Assembly (NCBI GenBank): GCA_024691985.1
Contig: JAILNC010000043.1
Coordinates: 1 to 50,220 of the forward strand
Reading direction: 5' to 3'
Length of the DNA: 50,220 bases
Source of the DNA: Oscillospiraceae bacterium
GTDB lineage: Bacteria > Bacillota > Clostridia > Oscillospirales > Oscillospiraceae
Of this stretch, positions 8,376 to 45,332 are shown piece by piece. The position numbers and the translations under genes are program-made. The notes under the pieces are model-generated. The model did not search any database. It saw only the letters and a program-made list of their open reading frames with translations, and was not told the DNA's origin. Each line of letters begins with the position of its first letter. Within the stretch, counting starts at the first letter, position 1.

Positions 8376-8414
8376 ACAAAAAAAGTGAGCGACAGGGCCG
8401 AAGCCCTGCCGCTC
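8376..8414 (-). terminator. terminator of the LysM-protein gene
   Basis: Minus-strand AGCGGCAGGGCTTCGGCCCTGTCGCT followed by a T tract (plus-strand AAAAAAA at the low-coordinate side). Confidence 0.7.
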
Positions 8415-8453
8415 TGGGGGGAGATAGGGGGGTAATACTTTAGTTTGGTTTGC

Positions 8454-11400: not shown

Positions 11401-13838
11401 ACGGAGAGTCCGTTGGTGCCGTCCACAATGCCGATCGTGCCGAGGCCGGTGACCTTCATGTCGGCAGGTGTGATCTTCACCATGTTGGACACGAAGTAGG
11501 CGCAAACCTCAAAGACTGTATTCGTGCCGGCCACCTGTGCGAACGTGGGCATCTGGAAGCAGCTGTTCTTCTGCAGCTCGCTCGTGAGCATGGGATCGAT
11601 CGCGCCGTTGACCCAGACCTCATAATGATCAAGGGCGACGTTCTTGCTGCTGACGCTGTAGCTGACATTGACATACTCGCCGACGTTGGCGGGGTGCTGA
11701 GCCGCCGCGCCGTCGTTGGTGATCTGATACTCGTTGCGCAGCGCCTCAGAATCGGCCTGGAGGTACAGGCTTGCATCCTGATACTGATTGATCGCCTGCC
11801 CGTCAAGGAACACGCTGCCGGTGTAGATGCGCTGAGCGCGCTGGACAGCACCGGTCACGGTCGCGCCGCCCACAGGCATGCGGAACCAGACGCCGGTATC
11901 ATCAATGACGACGGGGACACGCAGTCCGTCGGAAATGCGGGTCACGATGTATGCGTCCGCATTGTTCGGGTCGGTGACCATCGCATAAGAGGTGTCCGCG
12001 GCATCCTCGGGCAGCCAGTTGAGGTAGACCCTGCTATTGGTGCCAGCCTCGCGGTCCGCGTCATTGCGGATGCTGGTGGGAGTGGGATTCGGGTTCGGAT
12101 CCGGGGCGCCGACAGTGGCGTAGAACTGGCCGCCCTGGACAGGATTGATGACGATCTGGTTGTTCCCCTTCGGGACAAAGTTGACCACAACATCCACATC
12201 CGCCGCAGGCATCGTGAAGGTGTTGTTGAATGCGCTGATAAAGTTCCCGTTGTCGTGGCGCTGAACCGTGATGCCCCGGACGATCTGGCCGCCGATAACG
12301 GCATCGCCGACGATGTAGCCGTTGTTGGGCTTGGCCACGATGGTGACCTGGGCGCCCTTGGCAGCCCTGGTCACATTGTTGCCGTTGACCTGTACGGAGT
12401 AGCTGCCGTTGGGGACATCAATCACGTAGAACGCATAGGTGGGAACAGCCTCGAGCGTGACCTCGACCTTGACGTCGGCGTCGGGCATGATGAAGCCCTG
12501 GTCAATGTTGGTGAGCGCCTCACGCTTTACGCCGTTCATCGTCTTATAGCTGACATAGACCTCAGTGGGAACCAGGCCGGAATCAAGGCTGACCACCGTG
12601 ACCGCGGCGCCCGTGGCGGCCGCGTTCATCGAAACGCCGTCGACCAGCGTGGCGGCCTTGCCGATGTAGTTGCAGTCAACCGTGATATTGTGGCCCTTCA
12701 TGACGTCCGCGTCGATCTGGATATCGCAGCTGGGCATGGTGAAGGAGAAGGACTTCAGCAGCAGATCGGCCTGGCCGTTGGCGAACTTGACCCGGACGTT
12801 CTTGGCAGCCCTGCCTGCCTTGGTGTTGACAGAGACATTGACGGTGTCGCCGGCCTTCGCTTCCTTGACCTGCTTGCCGTTGACAAAGAACTCGACATTG
12901 GCGGCAGCGGTGTCGATGGCGCTGGTGAGCTTATAGGTCTGAACGACCGTGGTCGTGCCGTCGCTGCTTGTCGTGGTGGTCTTGTTGTTCGAGGTAGTAT
13001 CGGACGGAAGCGAGATCGTGGTCGCGACCGGGTAGTAGAAAGGATCGCCCGCCTTCAGCTTGGCCAGATTCGAGTGCTCTTCATTGATGATCTCCAGCAT
13101 CGGCTTGATGGCGTTGTAGTCAAGCCCTCTGTCGGTCACAACGCCGTACGCGGTCTCGCCGGATTTCATGAGATGGCGATAGACCGTGATGCAGCTGGTG
13201 CCGTTGGCAGGCTTCGCCACCGACGGGATCCACAGCGTGGTCCCCGCGGGGATGCTGTTCCAGTTCGTGATCTTGTTGATCTTCTGGATCGTGCTCTTAT
13301 ACTTTTTGTAGGAGACGCCCAACGCGTTGCACGCGTCGGTCACGGTCTCGCCCATGGCGAGCTTATACGGCACCATATACCACCAGCAGGTGTCCTTGGA
13401 GATGGCGGTGTCGATGGCCGACTGTGTCGTGGTGGTCTTCGTGGTGGTCTTGGCCGTCGTGCTCGAAGCGGTCGACACTGTCGCGACAGGCGTCGTGATG
13501 CTGCTGGTGGCAGCAGTAGCCGTCTTCGCAGTGGACCCATGGCCGGTCGCGATCACGACAGCATCCGCGTCAGTGGCCGGCAGCGTCAGCACTCTGCCGA
13601 CAGCCAGCTTGTTCCACTGGTTGTCGGAGATGTTGTTGAGCTTCATGATGGCGATCTTGCAGGTGTAGTAGTTGAGACCCAGCTTCTGGCAGATCCTCAG
13701 CACGTAGTCTCCGCTCTTCATCTGATACGTCATCGTAGAGTAAGAGACTGTTTCTGCGTTCGCACTGAGGTTGTACCCTGCGAACAGAGATACGACCAGC
13801 ACCGCGACCAGAAGGATGCTTATGAGCCTTTTCTTCAT
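8454..13838 (-). CDS. very large secreted LysM protein with many beta-rich FTMPxxDVxVxxxF repeat domains
   Basis: Signal peptide MKKRLISILLVAVLVVSLFAGYNLSANA; three LysM-like segments (YQMKSGDYVLRICQKLGLNYYTC..., YKLAMGETVTDACNALGVSYKKY..., HLMKSGETAYGVVTDRGLDY...); repeated FxMPxADVxVxV units. Confidence 0.85.
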   Translation of the reverse strand: MKKRLISILLVAVLVVSLFAGYNLSANAETVSYSTMTYQMKSGDYVLRICQKLGLNYYTCKIAIMKLNNISDNQWNKLAVGRVLTLPATDADAVVIATGHGSTAKTATAATSSITTPVATVSTASSTTAKTTTKTTTTQSAIDTAISKDTCWWYMVPYKLAMGETVTDACNALGVSYKKYKSTIQKINKITNWNSIPAGTTLWIPSVAKPANGTSCITVYRHLMKSGETAYGVVTDRGLDYNAIKPMLEIINEEHSNLAKLKAGDPFYYPVATTISLPSDTTSNNKTTTTSSDGTTTVVQTYKLTSAIDTAAANVEFFVNGKQVKEAKAGDTVNVSVNTKAGRAAKNVRVKFANGQADLLLKSFSFTMPSCDIQIDADVMKGHNITVDCNYIGKAATLVDGVSMNAAATGAAVTVVSLDSGLVPTEVYVSYKTMNGVKREALTNIDQGFIMPDADVKVEVTLEAVPTYAFYVIDVPNGSYSVQVNGNNVTRAAKGAQVTIVAKPNNGYIVGDAVIGGQIVRGITVQRHDNGNFISAFNNTFTMPAADVDVVVNFVPKGNNQIVINPVQGGQFYATVGAPDPNPNPTPTSIRNDADREAGTNSRVYLNWLPEDAADTSYAMVTDPNNADAYIVTRISDGLRVPVVIDDTGVWFRMPVGGATVTGAVQRAQRIYTGSVFLDGQAINQYQDASLYLQADSEALRNEYQITNDGAAAQHPANVGEYVNVSYSVSSKNVALDHYEVWVNGAIDPMLTSELQKNSCFQMPTFAQVAGTNTVFEVCAYFVSNMVKITPADMKVTGLGTIGIVDGTNGLSVNGVKAGVPFWLSVAPGEGYVYDADGSNPASITSSLRVFRKDTGGEILPIAGPIPHPTSAGSYMYCFDAMPADGVKVEAVFEKLGYILNITTIDENGDPLTGGSYVKITRNSSETVVDNLATQMSVEYGDTISVALTQVGSSEYEFVSTDVNNFISKKTSFKVTGDFATNPINLIIRLKSKSLTAVKNPIKLNHSVNDSTRGNVEYVILDSPSGLSALNTFTSVAYAGDLVAIIPSAAPGYYTDPWNISVKVDGGHMDLAETTVDGKTAYTFTMPQKNYKSVTVNFQPIKYNLTLNVLDQNGDPVSLGYVKVIYEKADADADVLPSGNNFKSIPYGSTVKILMTDLAVKMGVTMDKATFTVTPKTLPVPGNKTVADTIENSGNGKKFVMPAGDCTVTVKLNDVPAGIEPVDVTLPSTAKVDGGSVKLKYVTEADEVLTDLTVKSGTKLKVMVDEDLQEKVLDGPIAFLKGTDKLVEVADGEFFTVPENPDDLTQDYTLTAETALATKQYQVQIAVENAPSDAALTVSVDGGATASIPISGTTLSPMVVHGKNIKIENTDSSDPAKFLVDGLSASSDSAATSVDKPLKPEGKNNGDTVVLTVKFESPTVELPEKDNNGYALSYTTSGGEAVDREKAPVSTDIYVKPTSDAPAGKYYKVEVNGEELTQNSDGTFGPFQVTEDLAKEKIVVTTHDKVVTVAITFNNAPSGLKTEVNGTVSTDSSVTVSDVKEASKEITIILHEPADYEFDNPGGDTDKYSANKDATYKYTMTVDMSAVNNGDTVSISLDILTPARTLPAKTDPGNRALTFYDKNGNVVEEVADGEVVYVDVKVAKASRYLDAVSIKGTALSKQTSGVNKGHFGPYTVTSNIEETDVVETVKEKVITLNFSYAGDAASKVYLSKDSGSTTEPNNATINVTEGGTGGTAKLADVMLMVTSPDAFSAEGTKGDNVTVTFDGGNAEATFGLDFSKLENNQSVSISVALQ

Positions 13839-14213
13839 AGTTGCTCCCCCTAACACATACCCTTTCGGGTGGAATGATGACTTTGGCACAGCTTTTTAAA
13901 AAGCCGCAACCGGCGAAAAGTAAAAAAAGTATTACGATTCGGCTATAATATTACAGCAACAGCCCAGAAAAAGCAAGACCCAAATGATAAAAAATTTCAA
14001 GAAATTTCATTTTGGTAACACGTCTTCATGGGTCACGAGGCCGAATCCCTTGCTGTGCAAGGCTTTCCGGTCTCTGCTCTCCGTCGGTCCCGCGTTCTCT
14101 GTTCGCGCCGAAATCAGCCTTCCCGTCTTTCTGTCAGTTAGGACGGCGCTCCGGAAGGAATGTTCCCGCATGTTTTACGAATTTTTAAAAATCAGGAAAA
14201 CTTTTTTTACACG

Positions 14214-14253
14214 AAACGGGACGGGAAGCTCTACCGCTTCTCGTCCCGTTTTT
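14214..14253. terminator. stem-loop terminator
   Basis: AAACGGGACGGGAAGCTCTACCGCTTCTCGTCCCGTTT. Confidence 0.75.
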
Positions 14254-15014
14254 TATTCGATTCCGAACAGCCTCTTGCCGTTCTCGCTTGTGACGGCGGC
14301 GATCTCCTCCTGCGTCACGCCCTTGATCTCGGCGATCTTCTGTGCGATGTAACACAGATTGCGGGAGTCGTTCCGTCTGCCTCGCATCGGGACCGGGCTG
14401 AGATATGGGCTGTCGGTCTCGATCAGCATCCTGTCCAGCGGACACAGCGCCAGGATCTCCGGCGCCCTGCGCGCGTTTTTATAGGTGACGGGGCCGTCGA
14501 AGCCGAGATACCAGCCTTGCTTCAGCAGCTGCTCCGCCATCTCCGCCGAGCCGGAGTAGCAGTGGAACACGCCGCGCAGACCCTCGTAGCGGCTGACGAT
14601 CTCCAGGCAGTCGCCGTGCGCCTCGCGGTCATGGACGATCACGGGCAGATCCCGCTCGAGCGCAAACTCCAGCTGTTTTGCAAACAATGCCTTCTGCTCT
14701 TCCTTCCGGCTCGCGTCCCAGTAATAATCCAGCCCGATCTCCCCGACCGCCGCGCAGCGCTCGTTTCCGGCCAGCTCTGCAATGCGCGCGAGATCGCCCT
14801 CCCGACAGCCCGCGAGCTCCTCGGGGTGGATGCCGACCGCGGCGTAGACGAAGGGGTGCTTTTCCGCGATCGCCAGCGCCCGCTCGCTGCTCTCGACGTC
14901 GCAGCCCGGGATCAGGATCAGCCCGACCCCGGCCTCAGGCATGGCCGCAAGCAGCTCCTCCCGGTCGGCGTCGAACGCGCGGTCGTCGTAATGTGCATGG
15001 GTGTCAAAATACAT
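14253..15014 (-). CDS. TatD-family metal-dependent deoxyribonuclease
   Basis: MYFDTHAHYDDRAFDADR, AVGIHPEE, AVGEIGLDYYWD, HCYSGS, IETDSPYLSP. Confidence 0.92.
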   Translation of the reverse strand: MYFDTHAHYDDRAFDADREELLAAMPEAGVGLILIPGCDVESSERALAIAEKHPFVYAAVGIHPEELAGCREGDLARIAELAGNERCAAVGEIGLDYYWDASRKEEQKALFAKQLEFALERDLPVIVHDREAHGDCLEIVSRYEGLRGVFHCYSGSAEMAEQLLKQGWYLGFDGPVTYKNARRAPEILALCPLDRMLIETDSPYLSPVPMRGRRNDSRNLCYIAQKIAEIKGVTQEEIAAVTSENGKRLFGIE

Positions 15015-15133
15015 AGGGCTCCCCCTTCTGCTCTTTTGTCGGGACTATCATATCCCGGCCCGGCCGTTTTTGCAAGCGCGATCCCTTCCGCCGCCCCGGA
15101 AATGAGAGCTGAAAAAAGCTGCGCGTCCTGTTC

Positions 15134-16645
15134 TTGCAAAGCGAAGTCTGCTGTGGTAGAATAACAAAAGCGTTATCCATAATCAGTTTCGGAGTGCTTG
15201 GGATGCAGCTTCTTCAACCCGCCGGCGAGAAGGCCTTCCGCCACACGCTCGCTTTCTTTGCCGCCGCTTTCTTATTATTTTATATGGTATGCCCGGTCGC
15301 GCCGCAGCGCTGGAACGACCTCTATGTCGCCTACGGCCGCGGGGCTGTCTTTGCCATGGCCGGCATCTACTTCTTCGTATGCCGCCTGCGCGGGAGGCTT
15401 GAGGTCCGTCTGGTCGTCTATTATACGATCTGGGTCTTTCTCACCCGCCTGCTCAACACCGACTTCTATCTGCAAAACGAGCTGGACCTGGTCATCAGCC
15501 GCATCCTCTGCTGCGTGATCCTCCCCGTCGGGCTCCTGCTCGAGCCGCAGGAACGTCTGCGTCTGCTCGACGTGCTGGCCGTCTTCGCCGGTATTTACTA
15601 TTTCATCACGGCGCTGCTCGGCCTGTATGCGGCGATCTTCGGCGTCTACTTCTATATCCCGCCGGAGGGGGTCGTCTTCGGCATTAACGACAAATCTCTG
15701 TTTTACAGCAACTTTGTCTATATCATGGCCTGGGCGACCAACCGCACCATCTCCGCCGTCTGGTTCTATCTGGCCTGGTGCATGATGATCTACGCCTTTC
15801 TCCGCACCCGCAGGACGGCGCTGCGCATCCCCATCGTCCTCGCATTCTTCGTCTTTTATCTGGCGCTGGCCTTCTGCCGCTGCCGGAACATCAAGGTCGC
15901 CGTCTCCCTCAATGTCGCCATGCTGCTTTTCCTCTGGGGACAGACGCTTCTGCGCAAAAAAAAGACCGGGCTGCGCATCGCGCTTTTGTGTGCGGTGCTG
16001 CTGCTCTCGATCCCCGCCGTCTATAAAAGCTTCGATGTGATGACTTCGGCTTCGGCCGCGCTGTACAACGCGCTGGATCCCGATATCGAGCGCACGGCCG
16101 ACGCTTTCATGGGCGACGAATATATCGAAGACACAAAGGACGGGCAGGACTTCGCGGATACGCGCGATTTAAAGACCAGTCTCTCCAACCTCTCCAACCG
16201 CAGGGAGATCTATGCGAGTGCGATCCCCACCTTCCGGGAGGACCCGCTGCGGCTGCTGATCGGCAAATACAGCAGCAAGATCATGCTCATCCCGAACAAG
16301 TATCAGTCCTACCCCTACTGGCACATGCACAACTATCTGCTGCAGGTCCTGATGCTGACGGGCATTCCCGGCTTCCTGCTTGTGCTCGCGTTCAGCGTGC
16401 TGCTGGTCTGGCATGCGGTGCGGCTCTTCTTCTCCGCGGCGCCTGCGGTGATCAAAACGCTGGTCCTCCCCATCTCCGGCATTTTGTTTTACGGGATGTT
16501 TGAGATCATCATCTTCACGGAAAGCGCCGATATGCGCGCGCTGACCGATTTTCGGGAGCTGTTCTTCTTCCTGCTCGCCGGCATCGTGCTGGCCTATTCT
16601 GGTGAATTCCCGTCTGCCGTCGGCAGGCGGGAGTCTGGAGCGTGA
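15134..16645 (+). CDS. O-antigen ligase / polymerase-like polytopic membrane protein
   Basis: Multiple TM segments, large extracytoplasmic loop, then PYWHMHNYLLQVLMLTGIPGFLL (Wzy_C-like H-N-x-x-L-Q motif); true start may be downstream. Confidence 0.65.
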   Translation: MQSEVCCGRITKALSIISFGVLGMQLLQPAGEKAFRHTLAFFAAAFLLFYMVCPVAPQRWNDLYVAYGRGAVFAMAGIYFFVCRLRGRLEVRLVVYYTIWVFLTRLLNTDFYLQNELDLVISRILCCVILPVGLLLEPQERLRLLDVLAVFAGIYYFITALLGLYAAIFGVYFYIPPEGVVFGINDKSLFYSNFVYIMAWATNRTISAVWFYLAWCMMIYAFLRTRRTALRIPIVLAFFVFYLALAFCRCRNIKVAVSLNVAMLLFLWGQTLLRKKKTGLRIALLCAVLLLSIPAVYKSFDVMTSASAALYNALDPDIERTADAFMGDEYIEDTKDGQDFADTRDLKTSLSNLSNRREIYASAIPTFREDPLRLLIGKYSSKIMLIPNKYQSYPYWHMHNYLLQVLMLTGIPGFLLVLAFSVLLVWHAVRLFFSAAPAVIKTLVLPISGILFYGMFEIIIFTESADMRALTDFRELFFFLLAGIVLAYSGEFPSAVGRRESGA

Positions 16646-29157: not shown

Positions 29158-29210
29158 TAAAAGCAGGAACTCCACCGGGTTTTTCCCGGTGGAGTTCCTG
29201 CTTTCTTTTA
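29158..29210. terminator. bidirectional terminator between the ior cluster and the GT2-GtrA gene
   Basis: AAAGCAGGAACTCCACCGGGTTTTTCCCGGTGGAGTTCCTGCTTT. Confidence 0.85.
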
Positions 29211-30350
29211 TTTCTGGTCTCGAAAAACCCAGTTTTTTTGGATGAAATAACTGATGACGAACAGGATCAGCTCGATCACGATCTTGACCGCGGTCGCCAG
29301 CACGGGGTGGACGATGTCGAGCGCGTTGACGAGGGAGGTCAGACAAACCGTGGAGACCAGCGTCTGCGGCACGCAGAGGCAGTAGTACTTGCCGAGCGAG
29401 GCCCAGTGGTTCTCATTGGTGAGGAAGACGAAGCGGTCGTTCACCGTGAAGTTGAAGAGCGAAGACACCACACGCGCGCAGACCTGGGCCACGGGCGAGG
29501 CGTTGGCGAGCCTGGCGCCCAGCAGACTGAACAGAACCAGATAGAGCCCGTTGTCCAAAATCCAGGACAGGACCGCGCTCACCGCGTAGCGAAAGCCGGA
29601 GCCCGTGCAGAAGAAGCGGGCCATCACCCTGGTGATGCGCAGCGAGTCCTTGACCGGGTTGTAGTGCGAGCTGTAGTCCTCCGGGTCGTAGACGGTGGCG
29701 ATGGGCTGCTCCAGAAAGTCGATCCCCATGCGCTTCATGTGCAGCAGCATGTTCGTCTCATACTCGAAGCGCTCCCCCTCGATATCGCAGAAGGGCCCGA
29801 GATACTGCGCCGGGATGGCGCGCAGGCCCGTCTGTGTGTCGGAGAGGCGGATGCCGAAGATCAGCCGGAAGAAACGCGAGGTGGTCTTGTTGCCCGCCAC
29901 GGAGCGCGGCGGGATCCCGGGGAGGTTAAAGTCACGGCAGCCGAGGACGACCTTGTCGCCTGCCTCCAGCATCCTGTCGCCGCAGGCGACGATGTCCGGA
30001 AGCAGATGCTGCCCGTCCCCGTCGATGGTGATGACGCCCTTGAGCTCGGGAAGATTCTCCGCCACATAGGAGAACGCCGTCTTGAGCGCCCTTCCCTTGC
30101 CCATGTTGACCGGATGGGTCAGCACCGTGCAGCCGGGCTTTTCGGCCGCCTCCTCGAAAAAGCGTCTGGCTTCGGCGGAGCTGCCGTCGTCCACGATCAC
30201 GATATGGGCAAATCCCTCCCGCACGAGGCCGTCGACGACACGCGCAAATTTTTCATCGGGGTCCAGCGAAGGCAGCACAATGGCTGTGCTCCTGCGGCAG
30301 TCCGTCCCTGTTTCTGTACATGCGGATTCCATCTCAGTAAAGCTCCACAC
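29208..30350 (-). CDS. fused family-2 glycosyltransferase / GtrA-like membrane protein
   Basis: AIVLPSLDPDEKFARVVDGLVREGFAHIVIVDDGSS..., GVITIDGDGQH; C-terminal 4-TM GtrA half (FRYAVSAVLSWILDNGLYLVLFSLLG...VNDRFVF...YFIQKNWVF). Confidence 0.88.
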   Translation of the reverse strand: MWSFTEMESACTETGTDCRRSTAIVLPSLDPDEKFARVVDGLVREGFAHIVIVDDGSSAEARRFFEEAAEKPGCTVLTHPVNMGKGRALKTAFSYVAENLPELKGVITIDGDGQHLLPDIVACGDRMLEAGDKVVLGCRDFNLPGIPPRSVAGNKTTSRFFRLIFGIRLSDTQTGLRAIPAQYLGPFCDIEGERFEYETNMLLHMKRMGIDFLEQPIATVYDPEDYSSHYNPVKDSLRITRVMARFFCTGSGFRYAVSAVLSWILDNGLYLVLFSLLGARLANASPVAQVCARVVSSLFNFTVNDRFVFLTNENHWASLGKYYCLCVPQTLVSTVCLTSLVNALDIVHPVLATAVKIVIELILFVISYFIQKNWVFRDQK

Positions 30351-31470
30351 CCTCGGCCAGGAGACGCTCGCCGTCGTCGTAGACCAGAATCTTCAAGTTG
30401 CTGGTGCTGGTCTGATCGCCCTTGCCGTAATAGTAGTAGCTGGCCGAAGCGGTCAGATCGACCTCCGAGAAGCCGTTCACAAGCTCGAGCACGGAGTTGA
30501 CAAAGACGCTGTCCACATTGATATAGGAGGTATGCGCCCAGCTCAGTCCGTCCAGCGCGTCGTACATGCGGTTATACAGCGTGCCGTCCTCCAGCATGTA
30601 GTTTTTCAGCTCCGCAAGGCGTACGCCGGGGTCGCCCGCGCCGGAGATATAGCTCAGATACGCCGTGGCGAAGGGGACGGCGAAATCCGTATAGCGCGCC
30701 AGCTCGTCTCCGGAGACATAGGTCGTGAACTGTTCGTCCCCCTGATTCGGGTCGATGACGGTCGGCTGCCCGTCCCCGTCGCGGATCTCGGTCTGCGCTT
30801 CGCCGATGATATGGTCGAAGCGGTAGGTCACCTTGGTGGGCAGGCCGTTCCAGTAGCTGTAGTATTCCTTGTTGATGTTGTCATAGGGGATGCCCTTTTC
30901 GACGATGTATTCGCTGCCGAGCTGGACGCCGTTGACAAATACCTGATAATTGAACGGGACCGTGACCTCCACCGAATTGTAGAGAGCGTTGAAGTCAAAG
31001 CTGTCCCCCGTGACCTTCCAGGGATAGAGGTTCCACTTGAGCCAGGACCAGGGCTTCTGCGTGGTGTCGATCCGGCTGCGGTAGCTGGTATCCTCCTCGA
31101 TCGTGACCGTGCCGATCTCCCTGCCGCCGCAGCGAAGACTGTAGACGCTCATGGTCTCGCTGCCGCCCTTGCGCACGGCGGTAACGCCGCTGGAGAGCTT
31201 GTCCTGCACGAAGGCCTTGATCTCCTCGTCCGTCTGGGCCTCATGGGGCATGGCCGCGACCGCCTCCGCGATCCCGTCGCTCCAGCGCTCTCGGTTGAGC
31301 TCTTCCAGATAATCGTCGATCGCATGATACGATCTGGTATATTCGTACTCCTCGGCATAGGTCCAGACCATGAGCAGCCCGTATGCGGCGGCGGCCAGGA
31401 GCGCTATCGCGAACAGGACCAGAAAAAACGTATAAAGTGCGGCGCGGCGTCTTCTCTTTCTCGCCATCAT
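30334..31470 (-). CDS. single-pass membrane protein of unknown function (paralog A)
   Basis: N-terminal basic + TM; aligns with 31510..32643 along its length (MPHEAQTDEE, PTKVTYRFDHIIG, LDGLSWAHTS). Confidence 0.75.
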   Translation of the reverse strand: MMARKRRRRAALYTFFLVLFAIALLAAAAYGLLMVWTYAEEYEYTRSYHAIDDYLEELNRERWSDGIAEAVAAMPHEAQTDEEIKAFVQDKLSSGVTAVRKGGSETMSVYSLRCGGREIGTVTIEEDTSYRSRIDTTQKPWSWLKWNLYPWKVTGDSFDFNALYNSVEVTVPFNYQVFVNGVQLGSEYIVEKGIPYDNINKEYYSYWNGLPTKVTYRFDHIIGEAQTEIRDGDGQPTVIDPNQGDEQFTTYVSGDELARYTDFAVPFATAYLSYISGAGDPGVRLAELKNYMLEDGTLYNRMYDALDGLSWAHTSYINVDSVFVNSVLELVNGFSEVDLTASASYYYYGKGDQTSTSNLKILVYDDGERLLAEGVELY

Positions 31471-31509
31471 GTTTCCCTCTCTTTCCCCGCCGCAACCGGC
31501 GGGGCTTTC

Positions 31510-32643
31510 TCAATACAGTTCCAGGGCGATCGCCCTGACGTCGTCGTTTTTCTTTTCGACGAACACGCGCATATTGCTGACGTTCACTTCCTGCCCCTTG
31601 CCCATGGCGAAGGTGGTGGCCGTGGCCGTCATGTCGCAGACATAGAATCCGCCTCCCAGCGAGAGCGCCCCGTTCAGGCGGGAGGAATCGACGGTGATGG
31701 AGGAGGTGTGCGCCCAGCTCAGCCCGTCCAGCATGCCCTTCATACGCTGCTCCATCTCCGAATCGGGCTTCAGATAGGGCTCCAGCCTCTGGTAGGCGTA
31801 AGTCGAGTCGGAAACGCCGGCGGCATATTTCAGATAATTCGCCGTGAAGCCCGCGGTGAATTCCGCAAGGCGCGCAAGCTCCTCCTCGCTGCAGGGCTTG
31901 ATGAACTGGGAATCGTCCTTCCCCCGGTCGATGGAGAAGACTTCTCCGTCCTCGTCCCGGATCTCGGGCACGAGCCGCCCGATCACATTGTCGAAGCGAT
32001 AGCGCACCTTGGTGGGGAGATCCTCGCTGTACTTGTAGTAATCCGCCAGGGCCTGAAAGGGGATCCCCGTCTCCGTGATATACTCCTCCCCCAGTCTGAC
32101 GCCGTTGAGCCAGACGGAGAAGGTCTCCGGAACGACGACCTCCACGGAGCTGTACAGGCCGTTGAAGTCAAATTCCTCTTTCTCGACCTTCCAGGTCTTC
32201 AGGCTCCAGGGCAGGAGCGACCACGGGCGGCGCGAGATATCGATCCCGGGAACATGGTCGGGATCCTCGGCCAGCGTGACCGTGCCGAAGGCCTTGCCGT
32301 TGCAGCGGAGCGTATACACCGCGCGGCCGTCGCCGCCGCCCTTGCGGGCAAAGCTGACGCCGTCGCGCAGCAGCTCGCGGACATGCACGGCGACCTCCTC
32401 GTCGCTCTGGACCTCATGGGGCATGGCCGCAACGGTCTCCGCGATCCCCTCATCCCAGAGCTGCTCGCTCAGGTTGGCGACATAGATCTGCATGGCCCTC
32501 TCGGGACGGGACGCTTCATACTCCGCCGCGTACTCCCAGATCCGGCTCAAAGCGTAGATCGAGGCGGCGATCAGCGCGAGCCCCCACACATAGAGGCACG
32601 CCGCATAGATCAGCTTTCCCCGGCGTGTTTTCCTTCTTGCCAT
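31510..32643 (-). CDS. single-pass membrane protein of unknown function (paralog B)
   Basis: N-terminal basic + TM; shared motifs MPHEVQSDEE, PTKVRYRFDNVIG, LDGLSWAHTS with the neighbouring ORF. Confidence 0.75.
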   Translation of the reverse strand: MARRKTRRGKLIYAACLYVWGLALIAASIYALSRIWEYAAEYEASRPERAMQIYVANLSEQLWDEGIAETVAAMPHEVQSDEEVAVHVRELLRDGVSFARKGGGDGRAVYTLRCNGKAFGTVTLAEDPDHVPGIDISRRPWSLLPWSLKTWKVEKEEFDFNGLYSSVEVVVPETFSVWLNGVRLGEEYITETGIPFQALADYYKYSEDLPTKVRYRFDNVIGRLVPEIRDEDGEVFSIDRGKDDSQFIKPCSEEELARLAEFTAGFTANYLKYAAGVSDSTYAYQRLEPYLKPDSEMEQRMKGMLDGLSWAHTSSITVDSSRLNGALSLGGGFYVCDMTATATTFAMGKGQEVNVSNMRVFVEKKNDDVRAIALELY

Positions 32644-32664
32644 ACGCTCTCCTCGAAACCGGGA

Positions 32665-33849
32665 TCACTTGTAGAGCCAGGCGTCGGGCAGGGGGCGGGG
32701 CTGTCCGTTCTCTGCGGAGCAGCTGTTGACATAGTGGTCCTTGTAGTACATGACCGTGGAGGAGCCGCCGTCCATGTTGATGGCGTTGATCGCGCCGTAG
32801 TCAAGCATGATGTCCGTCATATCCTGGTAGGTGGCGCCGGTGGAGTGGACCTGGCGTCCGTCGATGACCAGCATCAGGATCGCGCCGTCCGCACGCTGGC
32901 CGATGGCGGTGCGGGGGTTGACGCTGCTGCTGGGGGGATCGGCGGGCAGGCCGTTCGTGATCAGGATGGGGCCGAAGGAAACGGCGTTGACGATGTTGTT
33001 GGCCTGGCACTCCTCCAGCGTGTAGAAGCCGACGTGCAGGATGCCGTCCTTATCCAGGCCGGCGAAGCCCTCCGTCTGCCCGCTGTTGTCGTTGTAGCAC
33101 TGGCCGTCGATGATCGTGAGCCCCTCGGGGATGCCGCCGAGGCCGCCGCCGCCGTCGTCCTTGAAGCCGCCGGCGTTGATGCCGCCGATGGCGCCGTATT
33201 TTTTGACCATCTCCTCCAGCGTCAGGCCGATGCCGCCGTAGCTGTCGGGCATGCCGACGAAGACGCGCTTGGGGTCAAGGATGACCGTCATATAGCCCAT
33301 ATAGCCGTTGCCCTTGACGTCGAGCAGGATGATGCCGTCCCCGTCCTCGTCCACCAGACCGTAGGCGTCGGTATGGTTGTCATCCTCGCCCTGCGCATCC
33401 TCATGCGCGGCGATGGTGATGAGGTTCGCGTCGGTCGCGATGTCCGACGGCGCCTCTTCCTTTTTCGTCAGCTCCTGCATCTCCGCCTCCGTCAGGAAAA
33501 GACGGGGGATGAAGCGGAACCGGCGCGTCTCGTTCATGGTGTTGATGAACATGTCGCGCAGGGCGGGAGAGGGGCCCTTGATGATCACATATTCAAGACC
33601 GAGGCAGAAGCAGCCGGTGACCAGCACCAGAACGATGATGAAGCCTGCCACCCTGTCCCAGAAACGCATCCTCTTTTTATGGCGGACCTTCTTCCGAAGG
33701 ATCTCGCGTTCGGCCTCGCGATCGGTCTCGCTCCCGGTTTCGCCGCCGGCCGCACGCGCGAGCTCCTGCTCGTTCACTTCTTCCGCCGGAGATACAGTCT
33801 TTTTCTTCTTCACAGTTACACCCTCGTATGATGAAATGATGGATCTCAT
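32665..33849 (-). CDS. phosphodiester glycosidase (NAGPA-domain) family exported protein
   Basis: GAIGGINAGGFKDDGGGGLGGIPEGLTIIDGQ, NPRTAIGQRADGAILMLVIDGRQ, GAINAINMDGGSSTVMYYKD. Confidence 0.85.
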   Translation of the reverse strand: MRSIISSYEGVTVKKKKTVSPAEEVNEQELARAAGGETGSETDREAEREILRKKVRHKKRMRFWDRVAGFIIVLVLVTGCFCLGLEYVIIKGPSPALRDMFINTMNETRRFRFIPRLFLTEAEMQELTKKEEAPSDIATDANLITIAAHEDAQGEDDNHTDAYGLVDEDGDGIILLDVKGNGYMGYMTVILDPKRVFVGMPDSYGGIGLTLEEMVKKYGAIGGINAGGFKDDGGGGLGGIPEGLTIIDGQCYNDNSGQTEGFAGLDKDGILHVGFYTLEECQANNIVNAVSFGPILITNGLPADPPSSSVNPRTAIGQRADGAILMLVIDGRQVHSTGATYQDMTDIMLDYGAINAINMDGGSSTVMYYKDHYVNSCSAENGQPRPLPDAWLYK

Positions 33850-34025
33850 TTACATAACAACCCAAATTACACGTTATTCTACCACATGCCGCCGATACTG
33901 GCAAGCGCATTTTGCCGGAATTCACAAATATGTTAGATAATACCGCCGCTTCCCGGCGAAAGCAAGGGAAAGGCGTCGAAGGCGATCTCCCGGCGCGCCG
34001 GGAGATTTGACTGCCTGAGGCGCAA

Positions 34026-34066
34026 AAAGTTCCCGTCCCCCCATATCAGGAGGACGGGATTCGTTT
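34026..34066 (-). terminator. terminator downstream of the carbohydrate-binding-like gene
   Basis: CCCGTCC ... GGACGGG stem (34032-34059) with flanking A tract (minus-strand T tract). Confidence 0.6.
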
Positions 34067-34075
34067 TTGGTCGGA

Positions 34076-36163
34076 TCAGGGCTCGAAGCGAAATGCCAGA
34101 AGCAGACCGCACGCGAGCGCCAGCAGAGAGAGCGTCAGCAGGATCCAGGTCGACGCGTCCGGCACGAACTGCGTCTGTTCCGCCTCCGCCTGCTCTTCCG
34201 TCTCCGTCTCTTCGGACGGCGCCGCAGCATCCGGGCGCTCGCCGCCAAAATCCGGCATATCCGGAGGCGTGCCCATCTCCCCGTCGCCGGGGAAGCTGCC
34301 GCCAAAGTCCGGCATATCCGGAGGCGGACTCATTTCCGCGCCGGGGAAGCCGCCGCCGAAGTCGGGCTTCTCCGGGGGCGCTGCGGGAGCGCCGCTCTCG
34401 TCCGTGCGCTCCTCCCTGTGTCCGCCGGGACGTCCGCCGGTGCGCTGCATGCCGCTGCCCCAGTTCATCGGTCCGCCGAACATGGAGCTCGCCGCGTTGC
34501 CGTAGGAGGCCGCGGTCGACGACAGCGTGATCTCCTCCGAGCTGTCGCCGATGACGATGCGATAGCTCTCGCCGAGCTGCAGCCCGGGGGCGCTGATGGA
34601 GACGGAGTCAAAGGAGCAGGGCACGGTATAGCTCACGAGGGTCTGACCGTCCAGGGTCTCCAGGGAGACCGTCGACCCGGCCTCGGCGCCCTCGCTGAAA
34701 TTGTACAGGATGGCGCACTGGGTGGAGGATTCATCAAAGCCCTCGGCCATCGAATAGCTGCCGCAGGCCACGATCTCGCCGCCGGTGACGGTGCAGGTGC
34801 CGCCGCTTTCGCTGCCGTAATCCAGGGCGCTGTTCGTGCCGCCGGCGGGAAGGCTCACCCGGATGACGCCGCCGCTGATGACGATGTCGCCGTTGGAGTC
34901 GATGCCGTCCGCGTCCCGCGCGGTCGTGTTGGCGACGGTGAGCGTGCCGCCGCTGATGTGGACCCAGGTCTCCGTGTCGGACGAAGCCGTTTCGGCACCG
35001 GGGCCGAAGCCGAAGCCGCCGGAGCCGCCGTTTGCGTTCAGGCCGTCGTCCGTGGGGTAGACGGTCAGGTCGCCGCCGCGGATGTCGATGGTCAGCGCCT
35101 CGACGCCCTCGTAACAGTCTTCGATCAGGATCTCGCCGCCCGTTACCGTGATCGCGGCGTCGGAGTGGATCCCGTCGTCGCCGGCGCGGATCTGCAGACT
35201 GCCGCCCGCGAGCAGGATGTCCCCGGCGGCGTGGATCGCGTCGTCTGCGGCGTTGATGCTGAGACTGCCGTCCGTGAGCTGTATGTTCCCGTCGGACTGG
35301 ACCCCGTCGTTTCCGGCGCGGATCTGCAGACTGCCGCCCGCGAGCAGGATGTCCCCGGCGCTGCGGAGCCCGTCGTCATCGGCGCTGAGCGCAAAGGTCC
35401 CGGACTCGATATACAGCGTCCCCCCCGCGCCGTTGAGGACCAGCGCGTCGTCCCCGGCCTCGGCCGCTATGTCGGCATTGCAGATGTGCAGCGCGTCGTT
35501 GGCGCGGATGGCGTCCTGCACCGCGCTGACCCTGATCCTGCCGCCGGTGATGATCAGATCGTCGTTGGCTGAGATGCCGTGCCGGTAGAGCGCGCTGAGC
35601 GTGAGACTGCCGCCGCCGTTGATCGTCAGATCGTCATGCGAAAAGATCACGCCGTCCGTATTGTCCGCGAGCGCTTCGTCGGAGTAGGCTTCCCCGCTCG
35701 TCATGCGGTTGTCGGAGCCCTCCGCCAGCGTCAGAAAGACCTTGTCCGCCTGATCGACGCGCAGGCAGGCGTCGTCCGGGCAGTTGATCTCCACCCCGTC
35801 CAGCAGCAGCCAGACCTTGGAATCGCGCTCGGCGTCGACGACGACGCTGCCGCCCTCCAGCGCGCCGCGGAGCACATAGCGTCCGGCGGAGGAGATGATG
35901 ACGTCGCCGTTGTAGAAGTAGGCGCCGCCGCCCGAGATCGAGGCCTTGTCCCCCTTGAGCGTGATCACCGCGGCGGACGCGCTGTCCCAGCCGCCGTTGA
36001 GATCGTTGGCGGTGAACCAGCCCGATCCGGCGCTGCCCTCGGCATCCTCGTCCACAAGGACCTGGATGCCGAAGCGCTCGCCGTTGATGAACAGGACGGT
36101 CAGCAGCAGCGTGAGGATGAGCACGGCAATGCATATGAAATCTATGCCCTTGCGCGTTGACAT
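34076..36163 (-). CDS. carbohydrate-binding-domain (DUF4353-like) repeat protein, membrane anchored at both ends
   Basis: N-terminal TM; repeated GNDGVQSDGNIQLTDGSLSINAADDAIHAAGDILLAGGSLQIRAGDDGIHSD units; C-terminal PPDMPDFGGSFPG repeats and TM WILLTLSLLALACGLLLAFRFEP. Confidence 0.8.
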   Translation of the reverse strand: MSTRKGIDFICIAVLILTLLLTVLFINGERFGIQVLVDEDAEGSAGSGWFTANDLNGGWDSASAAVITLKGDKASISGGGAYFYNGDVIISSAGRYVLRGALEGGSVVVDAERDSKVWLLLDGVEINCPDDACLRVDQADKVFLTLAEGSDNRMTSGEAYSDEALADNTDGVIFSHDDLTINGGGSLTLSALYRHGISANDDLIITGGRIRVSAVQDAIRANDALHICNADIAAEAGDDALVLNGAGGTLYIESGTFALSADDDGLRSAGDILLAGGSLQIRAGNDGVQSDGNIQLTDGSLSINAADDAIHAAGDILLAGGSLQIRAGDDGIHSDAAITVTGGEILIEDCYEGVEALTIDIRGGDLTVYPTDDGLNANGGSGGFGFGPGAETASSDTETWVHISGGTLTVANTTARDADGIDSNGDIVISGGVIRVSLPAGGTNSALDYGSESGGTCTVTGGEIVACGSYSMAEGFDESSTQCAILYNFSEGAEAGSTVSLETLDGQTLVSYTVPCSFDSVSISAPGLQLGESYRIVIGDSSEEITLSSTAASYGNAASSMFGGPMNWGSGMQRTGGRPGGHREERTDESGAPAAPPEKPDFGGGFPGAEMSPPPDMPDFGGSFPGDGEMGTPPDMPDFGGERPDAAAPSEETETEEQAEAEQTQFVPDASTWILLTLSLLALACGLLLAFRFEP
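35181..35360. repeat. 48-bp direct repeat (two copies, 132-bp period) inside the beta-solenoid coding region
   Basis: CCGGCGCGGATCTGCAGACTGCCGCCCGCGAGCAGGATGTCCCCGGCG at 35181-35228 and 35313-35360. Confidence 0.9.
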
Positions 36164-36199
36164 GAAACAGTTACCTCCCCGAGGAGTATAGATGGGGGT

Positions 36200-36871
36200 T
36201 TATCCCATGTAGTCGCCGTTGTAGCTGACCAGGACGGCGCTGTGAACGCCCTCGAGCTCTGCCAGATGGTTGATGAAGGAGGTGTCGTCCTTGGCAAGAC
36301 GGACCTCGAGATTGAGCTCCACCGCGCCGCGCTGCACGGTCTTGCTCTTGACGACGCAGCGCTTTGTCCTGCTGCGCAGATAGGCCACGGCCTTCTCCTC
36401 GCTCTGCGGCCCGTCGCAGCTGAGCACGACGATATAGGGCTTGGTCGTGTCGCTGCGGTTGGCGAAGATCAGGATGATCACGCCGATCATCACGCTGCCG
36501 AACACGGCCAGCGGGATCATGCCCGCAGCCAGCACGATGCCGACGGCGATGGCCCAGAACAGAAACGCGATGTCCATCGGATCCTTGATGGCGGTGCGGA
36601 AACGCACGATGGACAGCGCGCCCACCATGCCCAGACTCAGCACCACGTTCGACGTGACGGCGAGGATCACCAGCGCCGTGATCATCGTCAGCGCGATCAG
36701 CGTGACGCCGAAGCTGGCGGAATACATCACGCCCGCGAAGGTCTTCTTGTACACGAAGAAGATGAACAGGCCCAGCCCGAAGGCCAGCACCATCGCCAGC
36801 ACCATGTCCAGAAGACTCACGGCGTTGACGTTCTCGAGAAAGCTGGATTTGAAGATGTCACTGAAGGTCAT
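36200..36871 (-). CDS. DUF4956 domain membrane protein
   Basis: VLSLGMVGALSIVRFRTAIKDPMDIAFLFWAIAVGIVLAAGM (characteristic DUF4956 core). Confidence 0.85.
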   Translation of the reverse strand: MTFSDIFKSSFLENVNAVSLLDMVLAMVLAFGLGLFIFFVYKKTFAGVMYSASFGVTLIALTMITALVILAVTSNVVLSLGMVGALSIVRFRTAIKDPMDIAFLFWAIAVGIVLAAGMIPLAVFGSVMIGVIILIFANRSDTTKPYIVVLSCDGPQSEEKAVAYLRSRTKRCVVKSKTVQRGAVELNLEVRLAKDDTSFINHLAELEGVHSAVLVSYNGDYMG

Positions 36872-36905
36872 GTTGCGTTTCTCCTTTGTATCGTGAAATC
36901 ATTTG

Positions 36906-37583
36906 TTATCCGTAGATCCTGCACTGGGCGTACTTGGAAAAGGCCCCCGCGCGCAGGTTTCCCGTCTGCACCGCGCCGCGGATGACGGAGGGCAGATAGG
37001 CGTCCCACTTGACCTCAAGTAAAATGGGCGCGTCCCCCGCCGGGATCGTCACGCAGTCCGGATTCAGAAAGTCCGTGCATAGAAGGCCCGTGCGGATATT
37101 GTAGTCGAAGGTGACGCGGACGTTGCCCGGGCGGTAGATGAAGGGCTCGCGCGTGTAGTCCACGATGGTGCGCGGCCGGAGCCCCTGTGTGCGCATCTTG
37201 CAGTAGAGCTCCTGCACCAGCGGTCTGCCGCTGTCCATCATCCAGCCGAGCTCGCCGTCGACGATCTTCTGCGCCTCGTCCGCGCTCAGATCCGCGCTGA
37301 ACTTCGTGCCCAGGCCGCTGCGTCTGCACTTCTTTTCCAGATGGATGACGGAGGGGTCCCCGTTGTAGTAGCGGATGCGGAACTTCTCCCGCAGGTTCAC
37401 GCCGTCGATCTTCTCCCGCAGGGCCTTGTCGCCCGGCGTGTCAAAATAGAGACTGCGGATCAGATACTTCCCGTCGACCGCGTGCGGGTCGGGCTCGCAC
37501 ACCGCGCGCAGGCGCTGCCGGATGCACAGCAGATCGGCCTGGCTGATCTCGTGCTTCCACTCGTGCCGGTAGACGATATCCAT
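36906..37583 (-). CDS. VTC-domain polyphosphate polymerase-like protein
   Basis: YRHEWKHEIS, YLIRSLYFDTPGDKALREKIDGVNLREKFRIRYYNGDPSVIHLEKK, REPFIYRPGNVRVTFDYNIRTG, ILLEVKWD. Confidence 0.88.
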   Translation of the reverse strand: MDIVYRHEWKHEISQADLLCIRQRLRAVCEPDPHAVDGKYLIRSLYFDTPGDKALREKIDGVNLREKFRIRYYNGDPSVIHLEKKCRRSGLGTKFSADLSADEAQKIVDGELGWMMDSGRPLVQELYCKMRTQGLRPRTIVDYTREPFIYRPGNVRVTFDYNIRTGLLCTDFLNPDCVTIPAGDAPILLEVKWDAYLPSVIRGAVQTGNLRAGAFSKYAQCRIYG

Positions 37584-37725
37584 CTCCTGTCACCTTCTCT
37601 CCCGTTTCCTCGCTCAGTATAACGGCTCTTTCTAAAACGTAGCTGAAAAGGCCTGTGAAGCTTCTGTGAACGCTCTCGGGCCTCGCACCCCGTTTCTGTC
37701 ATTTTAATCTCTCCGGGGCACGCTG

Positions 37726-38616
37726 TCAACACGAAGCGAAGAGCGCTGCGAGACTTTGCTCCGTGAACGCGTCCAGCGCGGCAAAATCCATGGCGGGGCG
37801 GATGAGCGCCTCCAGCTCGTCGTGCAGCGCCTTCGCCTCGGCAAGCTTCCCGACCGCGTCCTCCCTCGCCCTGCGGGCCGCGGCGCTCTGCGTCTCGGGC
37901 GGCGCGAGCAGGGCCAGCGACAGTGCGGGGATGAGCACCGCCTCCAGCGCCTGCGCGTCCAGCGGACGCGGGCAGACGATCACGTCCAGCCCCTGCGCCG
38001 CAGCCTGCTCCGCAGCGGCAGCCAGGTCCGGAGGGGCGACGGATGAGACATAATTTTGTTTACATAATGATTCCAGCGTCTCGGTGAGACGCAGTTCGCC
38101 CCGGCAGGTGATCGCGGAGAGATACCGCCGCCGCAGACGGACGCCCGGCCGCGGCAGACAGGGCTCCTCCCCGCTCCGGCCTGCTTCCAGCGCCGTGTGC
38201 AGCAGCGCGTAGGCATCCCGGTAACAGCTCTTGTACGCCGTGTTCAGGTAGGCGGCATGCTGCCGCTCCGCCTCCGGCAGCGGCGTCCGGCAGAAGCGGC
38301 CAAGGTTTACATAATCTGAATCCACACCGAACAGGACGGGTTCGCGGACATGCGGGGCCGTGCCGTCCACCCAGGCCTGGCCGAGCGTGGGGATGCAGAG
38401 CGCGTCCAGGGAATCCGGATCGCCGGAGCAGAGGACGGTCTCGGTATCGAAGCCGCGCGTCGCGGCGGCGTCGCGGATGCGCCGCATGAAGCCGGATTTC
38501 CCCGTGCCCGGGCCGCCCTTGATGATGTGCAGGAAAACGCCTTCGCCCGGGAAGTCCTCATAACACGACGCGAAGCCGCGTCCGGAGTTCGCCGCGAGAA
38601 AGAATGTCTGATCCAT
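37726..38616 (-). CDS. P-loop ATPase (PRK06851-like)
   Basis: MDQTFFLAANSGRGFASCYEDFPGEGVFLHIIKGGPGTGKSGFMRRI; CSGDPDSLDALCIPTLGQAWVDGTAPH. Confidence 0.7.
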   Translation of the reverse strand: MDQTFFLAANSGRGFASCYEDFPGEGVFLHIIKGGPGTGKSGFMRRIRDAAATRGFDTETVLCSGDPDSLDALCIPTLGQAWVDGTAPHVREPVLFGVDSDYVNLGRFCRTPLPEAERQHAAYLNTAYKSCYRDAYALLHTALEAGRSGEEPCLPRPGVRLRRRYLSAITCRGELRLTETLESLCKQNYVSSVAPPDLAAAAEQAAAQGLDVIVCPRPLDAQALEAVLIPALSLALLAPPETQSAAARRAREDAVGKLAEAKALHDELEALIRPAMDFAALDAFTEQSLAALFASC

Positions 38617-38717: not shown

Positions 38718-40472
38718 TCAGGCTTTCGGCAGCGGAAGATCGAGCGAGGGGCCGATGACGCCGAGCGCCCAGCGGGCGCAGACCGCGGGAGGCGCGCTTT
38801 GGACGGCGGGAGCAGCCGCGGCGTCGCCGCCGGGCTCTGTCACGAATTCCTTTGTCCCGAAGCTGAGCACGATCTCACCCTCCAGATCGGAACGCACGTT
38901 CCCGGTCAGTGCGCCGCTCTCTACCCCCTGGTAGCGGTGCGCGCCCTTCGGCCGGATATCGTCGATGCGGTAGCTCGCCCCATGGGGGAGCACGGCGCTG
39001 TAGTCCGTCTGATCGTCCGCGGCCTTCTCGCCGTCGATCCAGACGTCGAAGGTCCCGTAGCCGTCCAGCGTCCCGCTCTCCGTCCCGTCGAGCAGGCCGT
39101 TGACGTCCAGAAGGCCGACCGCGTGCAGGAGCACAAATCTGAGGAGGAGACCGTTGTAGTCATAGAGCCGCGAGGGCATGGCGCAGAGCTCCTCCTCGGA
39201 GATCCAGACATAGCCCTCCTCCGTGGCGCGCACCTCGTCCGGGCTGGAATCCAGCAGCAGGAAGCGGTCGAGCGATTCGTCATAGTCCACGAGCGCCATG
39301 ATGTGGCCGGGAACGCTGCAGATCGCGGCGCAGCCGTGCAGCAGCATATCCTTCAGCTCCGCGTAGCTGTCCGTCTCGCCCGCATACTCGATGCCGCAGA
39401 GCATCCCGTAGGTCCCGGCAAAGCTGCTGTAGAATTCCCATCGGGTACCGCCGGCGATATGGCAGTCGGCGGCGGTCGCGTACTCCGCCGCGAAGGTCGG
39501 ATCCACAAAGATCCCGTTGAGATAATAGACCGCGTTCGTAAAGGCCAGGATCCCGCAGCCGGCCGAGGCGATCGTGGCGGCGTCGGCGCTGTCGCTGTAG
39601 CCGTACGGCGCGGCGGCCCAGCGGACGTCGCTCTGCAGGAAGACCGTCGGCGTTTCGCGCGCGGGGTCCGGCGCAACGGGCAGGACGATGAGCGGCTCGG
39701 GCGGCGCGGTCCGCAGAGGCAGGTCCTCTTCCTCGTCGAACAGGGCGCCCTCATCAAGCGGGAAAAGCGTCACGTCGACGGTCTGCTCCGGCTGTAAGCC
39801 CGCCGCGGCGGGGTCGGGCGTGTCGACCGTAAACGGGATCTTGTATTCGGGATCGTACCCGTCGCAGGCGGCGTCATAGACATAGCAGCCGGGCAAAAGC
39901 AGGCAGCCGTCTCCGGACGCGGTGCAGATCGTGATCCAGGAACCGTCGGCGCGCTGTGCGCCCTCATAGACGGTGACGACCGTGTCCATCGGGTCGCAGG
40001 AGAAGCGAACGAGAACGGCGCGCTGCTCCTCCTGAGGCGTCTCCGCCTCAAGCTGTGCGTCGTCCCGGGGCGCCTCTTCCTCTTCGGGCTCTTCGGGCTT
40101 CTCCTCTTCGGGCTGAACGCCGTACTCCGGCCCATCGTCTTCGCTGTTGTTTTCGTCCTCTTCGGCGGGGACGGGCGCCTCTTCCGCCTCCTCGGGCGGA
40201 TCGTCTGCCTGAACGGCAGGCTCCTCTGCGGGAATCTCCTCCGGAACTTCCGGTTCCTCGGGTTCCTCGGGTTCCTCGGGTTCCTCGGGTTCTTCGGGTT
40301 CTTCCGGTTCCTCCGCTTCCTCCGCAGGCGCTTCTTCATACGCTTCTTCAAGCGCTTCTTCGAACACTTCTTCGGGGGCGGGCTCCTCCGGCATCTCGTC
40401 GTCCGCATAGGCGGCGGGCGTCAGCGACAGCAGCAGTGCAAGGCACAGCAGCAGGCTCAGCAGCTTTTTCAC
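38718..40472 (-). CDS. secreted C39-like cysteine-protease-fold protein with long Glu/Pro-rich N-terminal region
   Basis: Signal peptide MKKLLSLLLCLALLLSLTPAAYA; (EEP)n tract; VFLQSDVRWAAAPYG...IASAGCGILAFTNAVYYL...CSVPGHIMALVDYDESLDRFLLLDSSPDE. Confidence 0.75.
   Translation of the reverse strand: MKKLLSLLLCLALLLSLTPAAYADDEMPEEPAPEEVFEEALEEAYEEAPAEEAEEPEEPEEPEEPEEPEEPEEPEVPEEIPAEEPAVQADDPPEEAEEAPVPAEEDENNSEDDGPEYGVQPEEEKPEEPEEEEAPRDDAQLEAETPQEEQRAVLVRFSCDPMDTVVTVYEGAQRADGSWITICTASGDGCLLLPGCYVYDAACDGYDPEYKIPFTVDTPDPAAAGLQPEQTVDVTLFPLDEGALFDEEEDLPLRTAPPEPLIVLPVAPDPARETPTVFLQSDVRWAAAPYGYSDSADAATIASAGCGILAFTNAVYYLNGIFVDPTFAAEYATAADCHIAGGTRWEFYSSFAGTYGMLCGIEYAGETDSYAELKDMLLHGCAAICSVPGHIMALVDYDESLDRFLLLDSSPDEVRATEEGYVWISEEELCAMPSRLYDYNGLLLRFVLLHAVGLLDVNGLLDGTESGTLDGYGTFDVWIDGEKAADDQTDYSAVLPHGASYRIDDIRPKGAHRYQGVESGALTGNVRSDLEGEIVLSFGTKEFVTEPGGDAAAAPAVQSAPPAVCARWALGVIGPSLDLPLPKA
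40252..40314. repeat. 9-bp tandem repeat in the Glu/Pro-rich coding tract
   Basis: Seven consecutive GGTTCCTCG-type units, the first four identical. Confidence 0.9.
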
Positions 40473-44225: not shown

Positions 44226-44318
44226 CTCTCAATGTTTCCGCCGCATCGTTTCGATGCGGCGGTTTTTTTGCGCTTTTCCGGGCATGCTAACGGAAAAAGC
44301 ATGAAAGGTGGAATCATC

Positions 44319-45332
44319 ATGGCCGAACGCATCGGGCGGCAGACGCTGCGCCTGACGGAGGACGTGCATGTCGGCGCATACGCGGCGGCGGGCGGAAAGA
44401 AGGAGGGCGAGGGACCGCTGGGCGGCGGCTTCGACCTTATCTCCGAAGACGCCTGGTTCGGGCAGGACAGCTGGGAAAAGGCCGAGACCGCCATGCTGCG
44501 CGGCTGTCTGGGCGCCTGTCTCGCCAAATGGGACGTGCCGACGCGCAGGCCCGAGCTGCTGCTGGGCGGCGATCTGCTGAACCAGTGCATCAGCTCCGCC
44601 TATGCCGTCCGCGAATGTGCCGAGCCCTATCTGGGCCTGTACGGCGCCTGCTCGACGATGGCCGAGGGGCTCATGCTGGCCGCGCTGCTCGTCGACGGGG
44701 GCGGCTTTGCCTCCGCCTGCGCGCTGACGGGCTCGCACTTCTGCACCGCGGAGCGGCAGTACCGCTTCCCGCTGGAATACGGCGGGCAGCGCACGCCCAC
44801 CGCCCAGTGGACCGTCACCGGCGCGGGCGCGGCCGTGCTCGAAAAGGGCGGCGGGACGCTGCGCGTGACCCACGTGACGCCCGGGCGCATCGTGGACGCG
44901 GGCGTGACGGACGCCTGCAACATGGGCGCCGCCATGGCACCCGCGGCCTTTGACACGATCACGGCGCATTTCCGGGATACGGGCCGGGACTTCGGGGACT
45001 ACGACGCGGTCTTCACCGGCGACCTCGGCGCGATCGGGCACGACATCCTGCAAGATCTGCTGCAGAAGGACGGGCGCTCGCCGGGGCTGCGCTATATGGA
45101 CTGCGGCGTGCTGCTCTACGATCTCAAGACCCAGGACGTGCACGCGGGCGGTTCCGGCTGCGGCTGCTCGGCGGCGGTGCTGTGCGCGCATATCCTGCCC
45201 GCCATGGAGCGCGGCGTCTGGAGGCGCGTGCTATTCGCCGGGACCGGGGCGCTCATGTCTCCACTGAGCGTGCAGCAGGGCTGCTCCATCCCCGGGATCT
45301 GCCACGCGGTGGCCATCGAGCGGGAGGACTGA
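44319..45332 (+). CDS. spoVAD: stage V sporulation protein AD
   Basis: SEDAWFGQDSWEKAETAML...GGDLLNQCISSAYAVRECAEPYLGLYGACSTMAEGL, thiolase-fold SpoVAD. Confidence 0.93.
   Translation: MAERIGRQTLRLTEDVHVGAYAAAGGKKEGEGPLGGGFDLISEDAWFGQDSWEKAETAMLRGCLGACLAKWDVPTRRPELLLGGDLLNQCISSAYAVRECAEPYLGLYGACSTMAEGLMLAALLVDGGGFASACALTGSHFCTAERQYRFPLEYGGQRTPTAQWTVTGAGAAVLEKGGGTLRVTHVTPGRIVDAGVTDACNMGAAMAPAAFDTITAHFRDTGRDFGDYDAVFTGDLGAIGHDILQDLLQKDGRSPGLRYMDCGVLLYDLKTQDVHAGGSGCGCSAAVLCAHILPAMERGVWRRVLFAGTGALMSPLSVQQGCSIPGICHAVAIERED

Follow-up and report, generated by a model that had tools for sequence, protein, structure and literature searches.

GT2 enzymes of the group found in this locus synthesise polyprenyl-phosphate sugars, and GtrA proteins are thought to flip these products. 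An undecaprenyl-phosphate sugar is a sugar-1-phosphodiester, and sugar-1-phosphodiesters are hydrolysed by enzymes of the NAGPA type. In B. subtilis, lipid-linked sugars are hydrolysed by UshA (PMC11898649). The L. johnsonii glucan requires a GtrA/GtrB pair near which a further transferase gene was not found (PMC7117936); it illustrates a general puzzle and is uninformative on NAGPA. In streptococci and clostridia, genes for CotH, a polyphosphate polymerase and DUF4956 adjoin pel genes (PMC7112168). Deleting the DUF4956-type or the CotH homologue of Streptococcus intermedius alters aggregation or Pel level, a change in either is not reported for deletion of the VTC homologue, and the authors of that study report having found no instance of this trio away from the Pel locus (PMC12345266).

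We analysed a window of 50,220 nucleotides from an Oscillospiraceae bacterium, which is an entire contig (C67) of a genome that is 79% complete. Its named relatives among public genomes come from uncultured bacteria of the gut and rumen and in some cases bear the label Candidatus Limivicinus; because of these names, the window's genus is most likely Limivicinus-like. The window carries two adjoining gene sets, unit A (VTC, DUF4956 and Cthe_2159 beta-helix genes) and unit B (NAGPA, one or two NTF2-fold membrane proteins, here called twins, and GT2-GtrA). We propose, with a probability of roughly 0.6, that two independently conserved envelope cassettes, with the roles set out below, became neighbours here. 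All seven reading frames that the initial annotation had placed on one strand at 29208-37583 were recovered on the minus strand at the coordinates given beforehand, and Pfam matches bore out the families it had named. The features are as follows.

37701-37729, minus strand: putative unit A promoter, TTGACA-17-TAAAAT (consensus scan, 11/12)
36906-37583, minus strand: VTC-domain protein of the polyphosphate-polymerase type, 225 aa (PF09359, E 1e-32)
36200-36871, minus strand: DUF4956 membrane protein, MgtC-like (PF16316, E 1e-12)
34076-36163, minus strand: Cthe_2159-type beta-helix carbohydrate-binding protein, membrane-anchored (PF14262, E 1e-76)
34031-34059, minus strand: intrinsic terminator closing unit A, 13-pair stem
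33876-33904, minus strand: putative unit B promoter, TTGCCA-17-TAGAAT with extended -10 (promoter scan)
32665-33849, minus strand: NAGPA-type phosphodiester glycosidase with N-terminal anchor (PF09992, E 4e-40)
31510-32643, minus strand: twin 1, one TM helix, then NTF2-like domain, beta-domain and NTF2-like domain (AlphaFold, Foldseek)
30334-31470, minus strand: twin 2, paralogue of twin 1 (45% identity)
29208-30350, minus strand: GT2-GtrA fusion, predicted polyprenyl-phosphate-sugar synthase and flippase (PF00535, PF04138)
29160-29204, no strand assigned: terminator separating GT2-GtrA from a convergent aminotransferase gene, 20-pair stem

Judged by their sequence signals, units A and B are two transcription units. 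The initial annotation had drawn such a layout around a terminator at 34026-34066, and the terminator located there (34059-34031) is followed by a promoter at 33904-33876. Both signals are retained at the equivalent spot in a sister species, G030, which also carries TTGACA-17-TATACT at the position equivalent to the unit A promoter. Upstream of NAGPA, the motif TTG[TC]CA-17-TAnAAT occurs in 14 of the 17 loci inspected, the window and G030 included and the others without unit A, and a leader, TTTGGGTTGTTATGTAAAT, is common to several species of the genus. Because the signals are kept in G030 and the NAGPA promoter is kept across the genus without unit A, the boundary between the units is, by sequence, a real one. 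Additionally, the start used by orthologues suggests that the true start of NAGPA is likely GTG 33813 and not ATG 33849.

The VTC domain scored 113.6 bits against a curated Pfam cut-off of 23, and its alignment profile matches yeast Vtc4 structures (7e-21) with the catalytic K/R positions aligned. Residues K10, R69, R71, K85, K94, R145, R156 and K217 of the window VTC align with K200, R264, R266, K281, K294, R361, R373 and K458, which we take to be the catalytic basic residues of Vtc4, and all eight are conserved without exception or almost so among 24 relatives. The DUF4956 protein shows weak similarity to the MgtC/SapB family. The third gene matched PF14262 only; a CotH kinase was not found by Pfam in unit A of the window, nor was any Pel-type family among the part of the window's open reading frames that was scanned. 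Since the same genome encodes PPK1, supplying polyphosphate is not peculiar to VTC, and we rejected VTC as the sole polyphosphate synthase. A short PRK06851-like ATPase is encoded upstream of VTC (37726-38616), and three relatives have a homologue of it close to unit B. On another contig of the genome (G000:C87:6029-6151), 41 residues that are 68% identical to the VTC N-terminus lie within a 274-codon open frame, either a remnant or a recombinant second VTC copy.

The expectation that VTC, DUF4956 and beta-helix genes recur together held well beyond the genus. In a class-wide sample of 40 VTC loci that took one from each genus without selection for neighbours, DUF4956 accompanies VTC in 39, a Cthe_2159 gene is present in 20 and a CotH gene in 14. 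Around VTC in a further set of 20 loci (18 from the genus), the VTC and DUF4956 genes are paired throughout, mostly with the beta-helix gene. We regard unit A as an accessory of a known kind, a portable VTC-DUF4956-(CotH or Cthe_2159) module of surface-polysaccharide systems. The VTC-DUF4956 module is widespread beyond Pel clusters, which contrasts with the earlier report (PMC12345266).

In unit B, the NAGPA domain scored 138 bits against a Pfam cut-off of 25, and the protein significantly matches human NAGPA structures. Its invariant core across 63 homologues comprises N225, R313, D321, N355, D360-G-G, S364 and R385. A fold model computed from the single sequence had a pLDDT of 37 and was discarded. 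The window genome encodes a second NAGPA (L184, G000:C87, 5815-7242), fused to a domain resembling the C-terminal NTF2 domain of the twins.

No Pfam match above cut-off was obtained for the twins, and matches of their sequences to designed helical repeats in the PDB were set aside as chance in favour of fold comparison. In the AlphaFold model (pLDDT 83), two NTF2-like domains flank a beta-domain after one TM helix, and Foldseek matches the twin 1 model to NTF2-fold proteins with probability 1.00; the best solved-structure matches of the twins are NTF2-fold proteins, among them TcpC and the ARC6/VirB8 group. A search for viral relatives of the twins found none. Outside the genus, a twin-type gene directly follows NAGPA in 15 of 39 NAGPA loci, a place that elsewhere in the Clostridia goes to a different single-TM protein. 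This twin adjacency, the NAGPA fusion and the substitute partners support a core of unit B in which NAGPA is paired with a membrane partner. In L200 (7318-8346) and many similar Clostridium-type loci, the protein directly after NAGPA is a single-TM protein of ~345 aa without a Pfam match.

The GT2 and GtrA domains lie in a single protein by Pfam, which resembles AglJ and PpgS at scores below the cut-offs of those families. From joined class-wide homologue lists and reading of the loci, we found NAGPA beside 11 of the ~42 full-length GT2-GtrA genes outside the genus (G131, G176, G199, G251, G267, G303, G321, G339, G341, G351 and G370), in nine families and several gene orders. By chance, ~0.09 such cases are expected, an estimate that assumes independent genomes, uniform gene placement and 2.5 Mb per genome, so that the size of any p-value derived in this way is not to be taken literally. 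Descent alone hardly accounts for such shuffled order across nine families. Clostridia also often have NAGPA but no GT2-GtrA, with the different single-TM protein following it, and the NAGPA substrate therefore need not be a lipid-linked sugar. The NAGPA-GT2-GtrA association is the new element of unit B and the part worth testing.

Whether units A and B belong together is a separate matter. Unit B has the same gene order in all 20 genus loci compared around the first twin, varying in having one or two twins (twin 2 is missing from part of the genus) and, occasionally, a duplicated NAGPA-twin pair. Among the fetched genus loci, the units adjoin only in the window and G030, although some contigs are short, so that elsewhere the two may lie more than ~10 kb apart. 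The distribution is likewise discordant, with homologues of the first twin in 89 of 91 genus genomes and full-length close VTC homologues in 28. For these reasons, we found no support for an obligate seven-gene system and rejected it, and the single integrated pathway suggested by the initial annotation does not stand as a rule. It had staked this grouping on homologues of the unit B genes occurring beside VTC units, and these do occur. In G341 and G176, VTC-DUF4956-Cthe_2159 genes lie together with NAGPA and GT2-GtrA on one strand in differing orders, and we withdrew our own view that the association is absent elsewhere. The NAGPA of these two loci led to a second NAGPA subfamily with a different membrane partner. 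Of its 16 loci, 4 (G341, G176, G313 and G443), from four other families, place a VTC unit no more than 6 kb away. With the two discovery loci left out, the count is 2 of 14, where chance would give 0.05-0.08 (p ~0.001-0.003, genomes again being treated as independent and 2.5 Mb each). Between the VTC unit and NAGPA of G313 lie genes for an ABC transporter and a phosphotransferase-family (APH) protein, and in G443, NAGPA matched as a fragment only. The Cthe_2159 gene adjoins second-subfamily NAGPA in G451, G159 and G494. In most loci, this subfamily is also adjoined by a small protein of ~130-160 aa with 2-4 TM helices and without a Pfam match (L214 4980-5366, L217 2833-3252 and relatives).

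Since VTC units adjoin the other NAGPA subfamily above chance in four families, an occasional A-B coupling looks real from gene neighbourhoods, as an exception and not the rule, and as a weaker link than that between NAGPA and GT2-GtrA. One could go further and assign all seven genes to a single pathway that builds a surface glycopolymer containing phosphate, and the four loci just described, two of them with both gene sets on one strand, speak for it. We consider it unlikely, however, given the separation of the units in all other fetched genus loci, their unequal spread over the 91 genomes, and the lack of any NAGPA or GT2-GtrA of the window's kinds within ~6 kb of VTC in the 40 unselected class loci; the NAGPA of the other families, moreover, belongs to another subfamily with another membrane partner. 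The units are usually apart, yet joined in several unrelated gut bacteria, and may therefore serve one surface polymer.

To the observed gene content, boundaries, conservation, predicted folds and recurrent adjacency we add a mechanism, whose chemical steps, like any shared polymer, we infer. For two cassettes that became neighbours, VTC would work at the inner face of the membrane, with DUF4956 as membrane partner, and produce polyphosphate or a polyphosphorylated product like it; outside the cell, the beta-helix protein would bind glycan. GT2-GtrA would load a sugar onto undecaprenyl phosphate and then flip the product. On the outer side, NAGPA, anchored in the membrane and kept together with the NTF2-fold twins, would have a sugar-1-phosphodiester as its substrate. 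The flipped lipid-linked sugar, or a sugar-1-phosphate decoration derived from it, is the most plausible candidate, and NAGPA would release sugar and carrier lipid or transfer the sugar. Because an undecaprenyl-phosphate sugar is itself such a phosphodiester, NAGPA may split off the sugar supplied by GT2-GtrA or pass it on. The neighbourhood data yield a concrete guess at the NAGPA substrate, undecaprenyl-phosphate sugars, and a candidate extracytoplasmic enzyme class outside the GT-C fold.

A bolder version, which we regard as speculative and improbable, has the NAGPA-fold enzyme replace the GT-C transferase altogether: the sugar of a flipped undecaprenyl-phosphate sugar would be hydrolysed or transferred and the carrier freed, the NTF2-fold proteins would present the acceptor, and the polyphosphate unit would be coupled in some lineages. 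It is possible, though doubtful, that unit B is instead ordinary three-component transmembrane glycosylation with its GT-C elsewhere and with NAGPA trimming a phosphodiester-linked product or recycling it. GT2 and GtrA are two of the three components of such systems (PMC7389260, PMC8035078), and other contigs of the window genome encode four PMT_2-like GT-C proteins, two of them above the family cut-off; yet none of the 20 genus loci has a polytopic GT-C transferase within the conserved cassette, whereas NAGPA is always present. The many Clostridia with NAGPA and a different single-TM protein, without GT2-GtrA, would fit a NAGPA-twin pair with a general role as envelope phosphodiesterase, independent of GT2-GtrA and next to it in the genus by ancestral chance. 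The reordered adjacency in nine families argues against such a coincidence and makes it very unlikely.

At 7277-16645 of the window, four consecutive proteins that lack Pfam matches, the size of one being 1365 aa, precede an O-antigen-ligase (Wzy_C) protein (15134-16645), and this region is possibly another envelope-polymer cluster. The product of 38718-40472 is a secreted protein that carries a long acidic EEPEEPE repeat and weakly matches a C39-like peptidase. The sporulation protein SpoVAD (44232-45332) is present, so the organism may sporulate.

Compared with described systems, unit A shares the VTC-DUF4956 pair with the VTC/DUF4956/CotH genes of Gram-positive Pel clusters (PMC7112168, PMC12345266), and both have a secreted or anchored third protein and adjoining surface-polysaccharide genes. 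Its third gene, however, is Cthe_2159 instead of CotH, and its neighbour is the NAGPA/GT2-GtrA cassette in place of a pel family, none of which appeared among the scanned window frames. The window VTC shares the profile match and active-site positions with yeast Vtc4, whereas the bacterial protein has no SPX or TM domain and its DUF4956 partner is separate. With the human uncovering enzyme (NAGPA/DUF2233 glycosidases), the window NAGPA has the catalytic domain family and the invariant core in common, but it is bacterial, membrane-anchored and equipped with a dedicated partner. If NAGPA frees undecaprenyl phosphate from lipid-linked sugars, it would share this reaction with UshA of Bacillus subtilis (PMC11898649), an alpha/beta hydrolase of an unrelated family. 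Finally, unit B has a GT2 synthase and a GtrA flippase in common with three-component systems (GtrA/GtrB/GtrX; CsbB-GtcA-YfhO type), but here the two are fused, and in place of a GT-C, the cassette adds a NAGPA enzyme and NTF2-fold partners.
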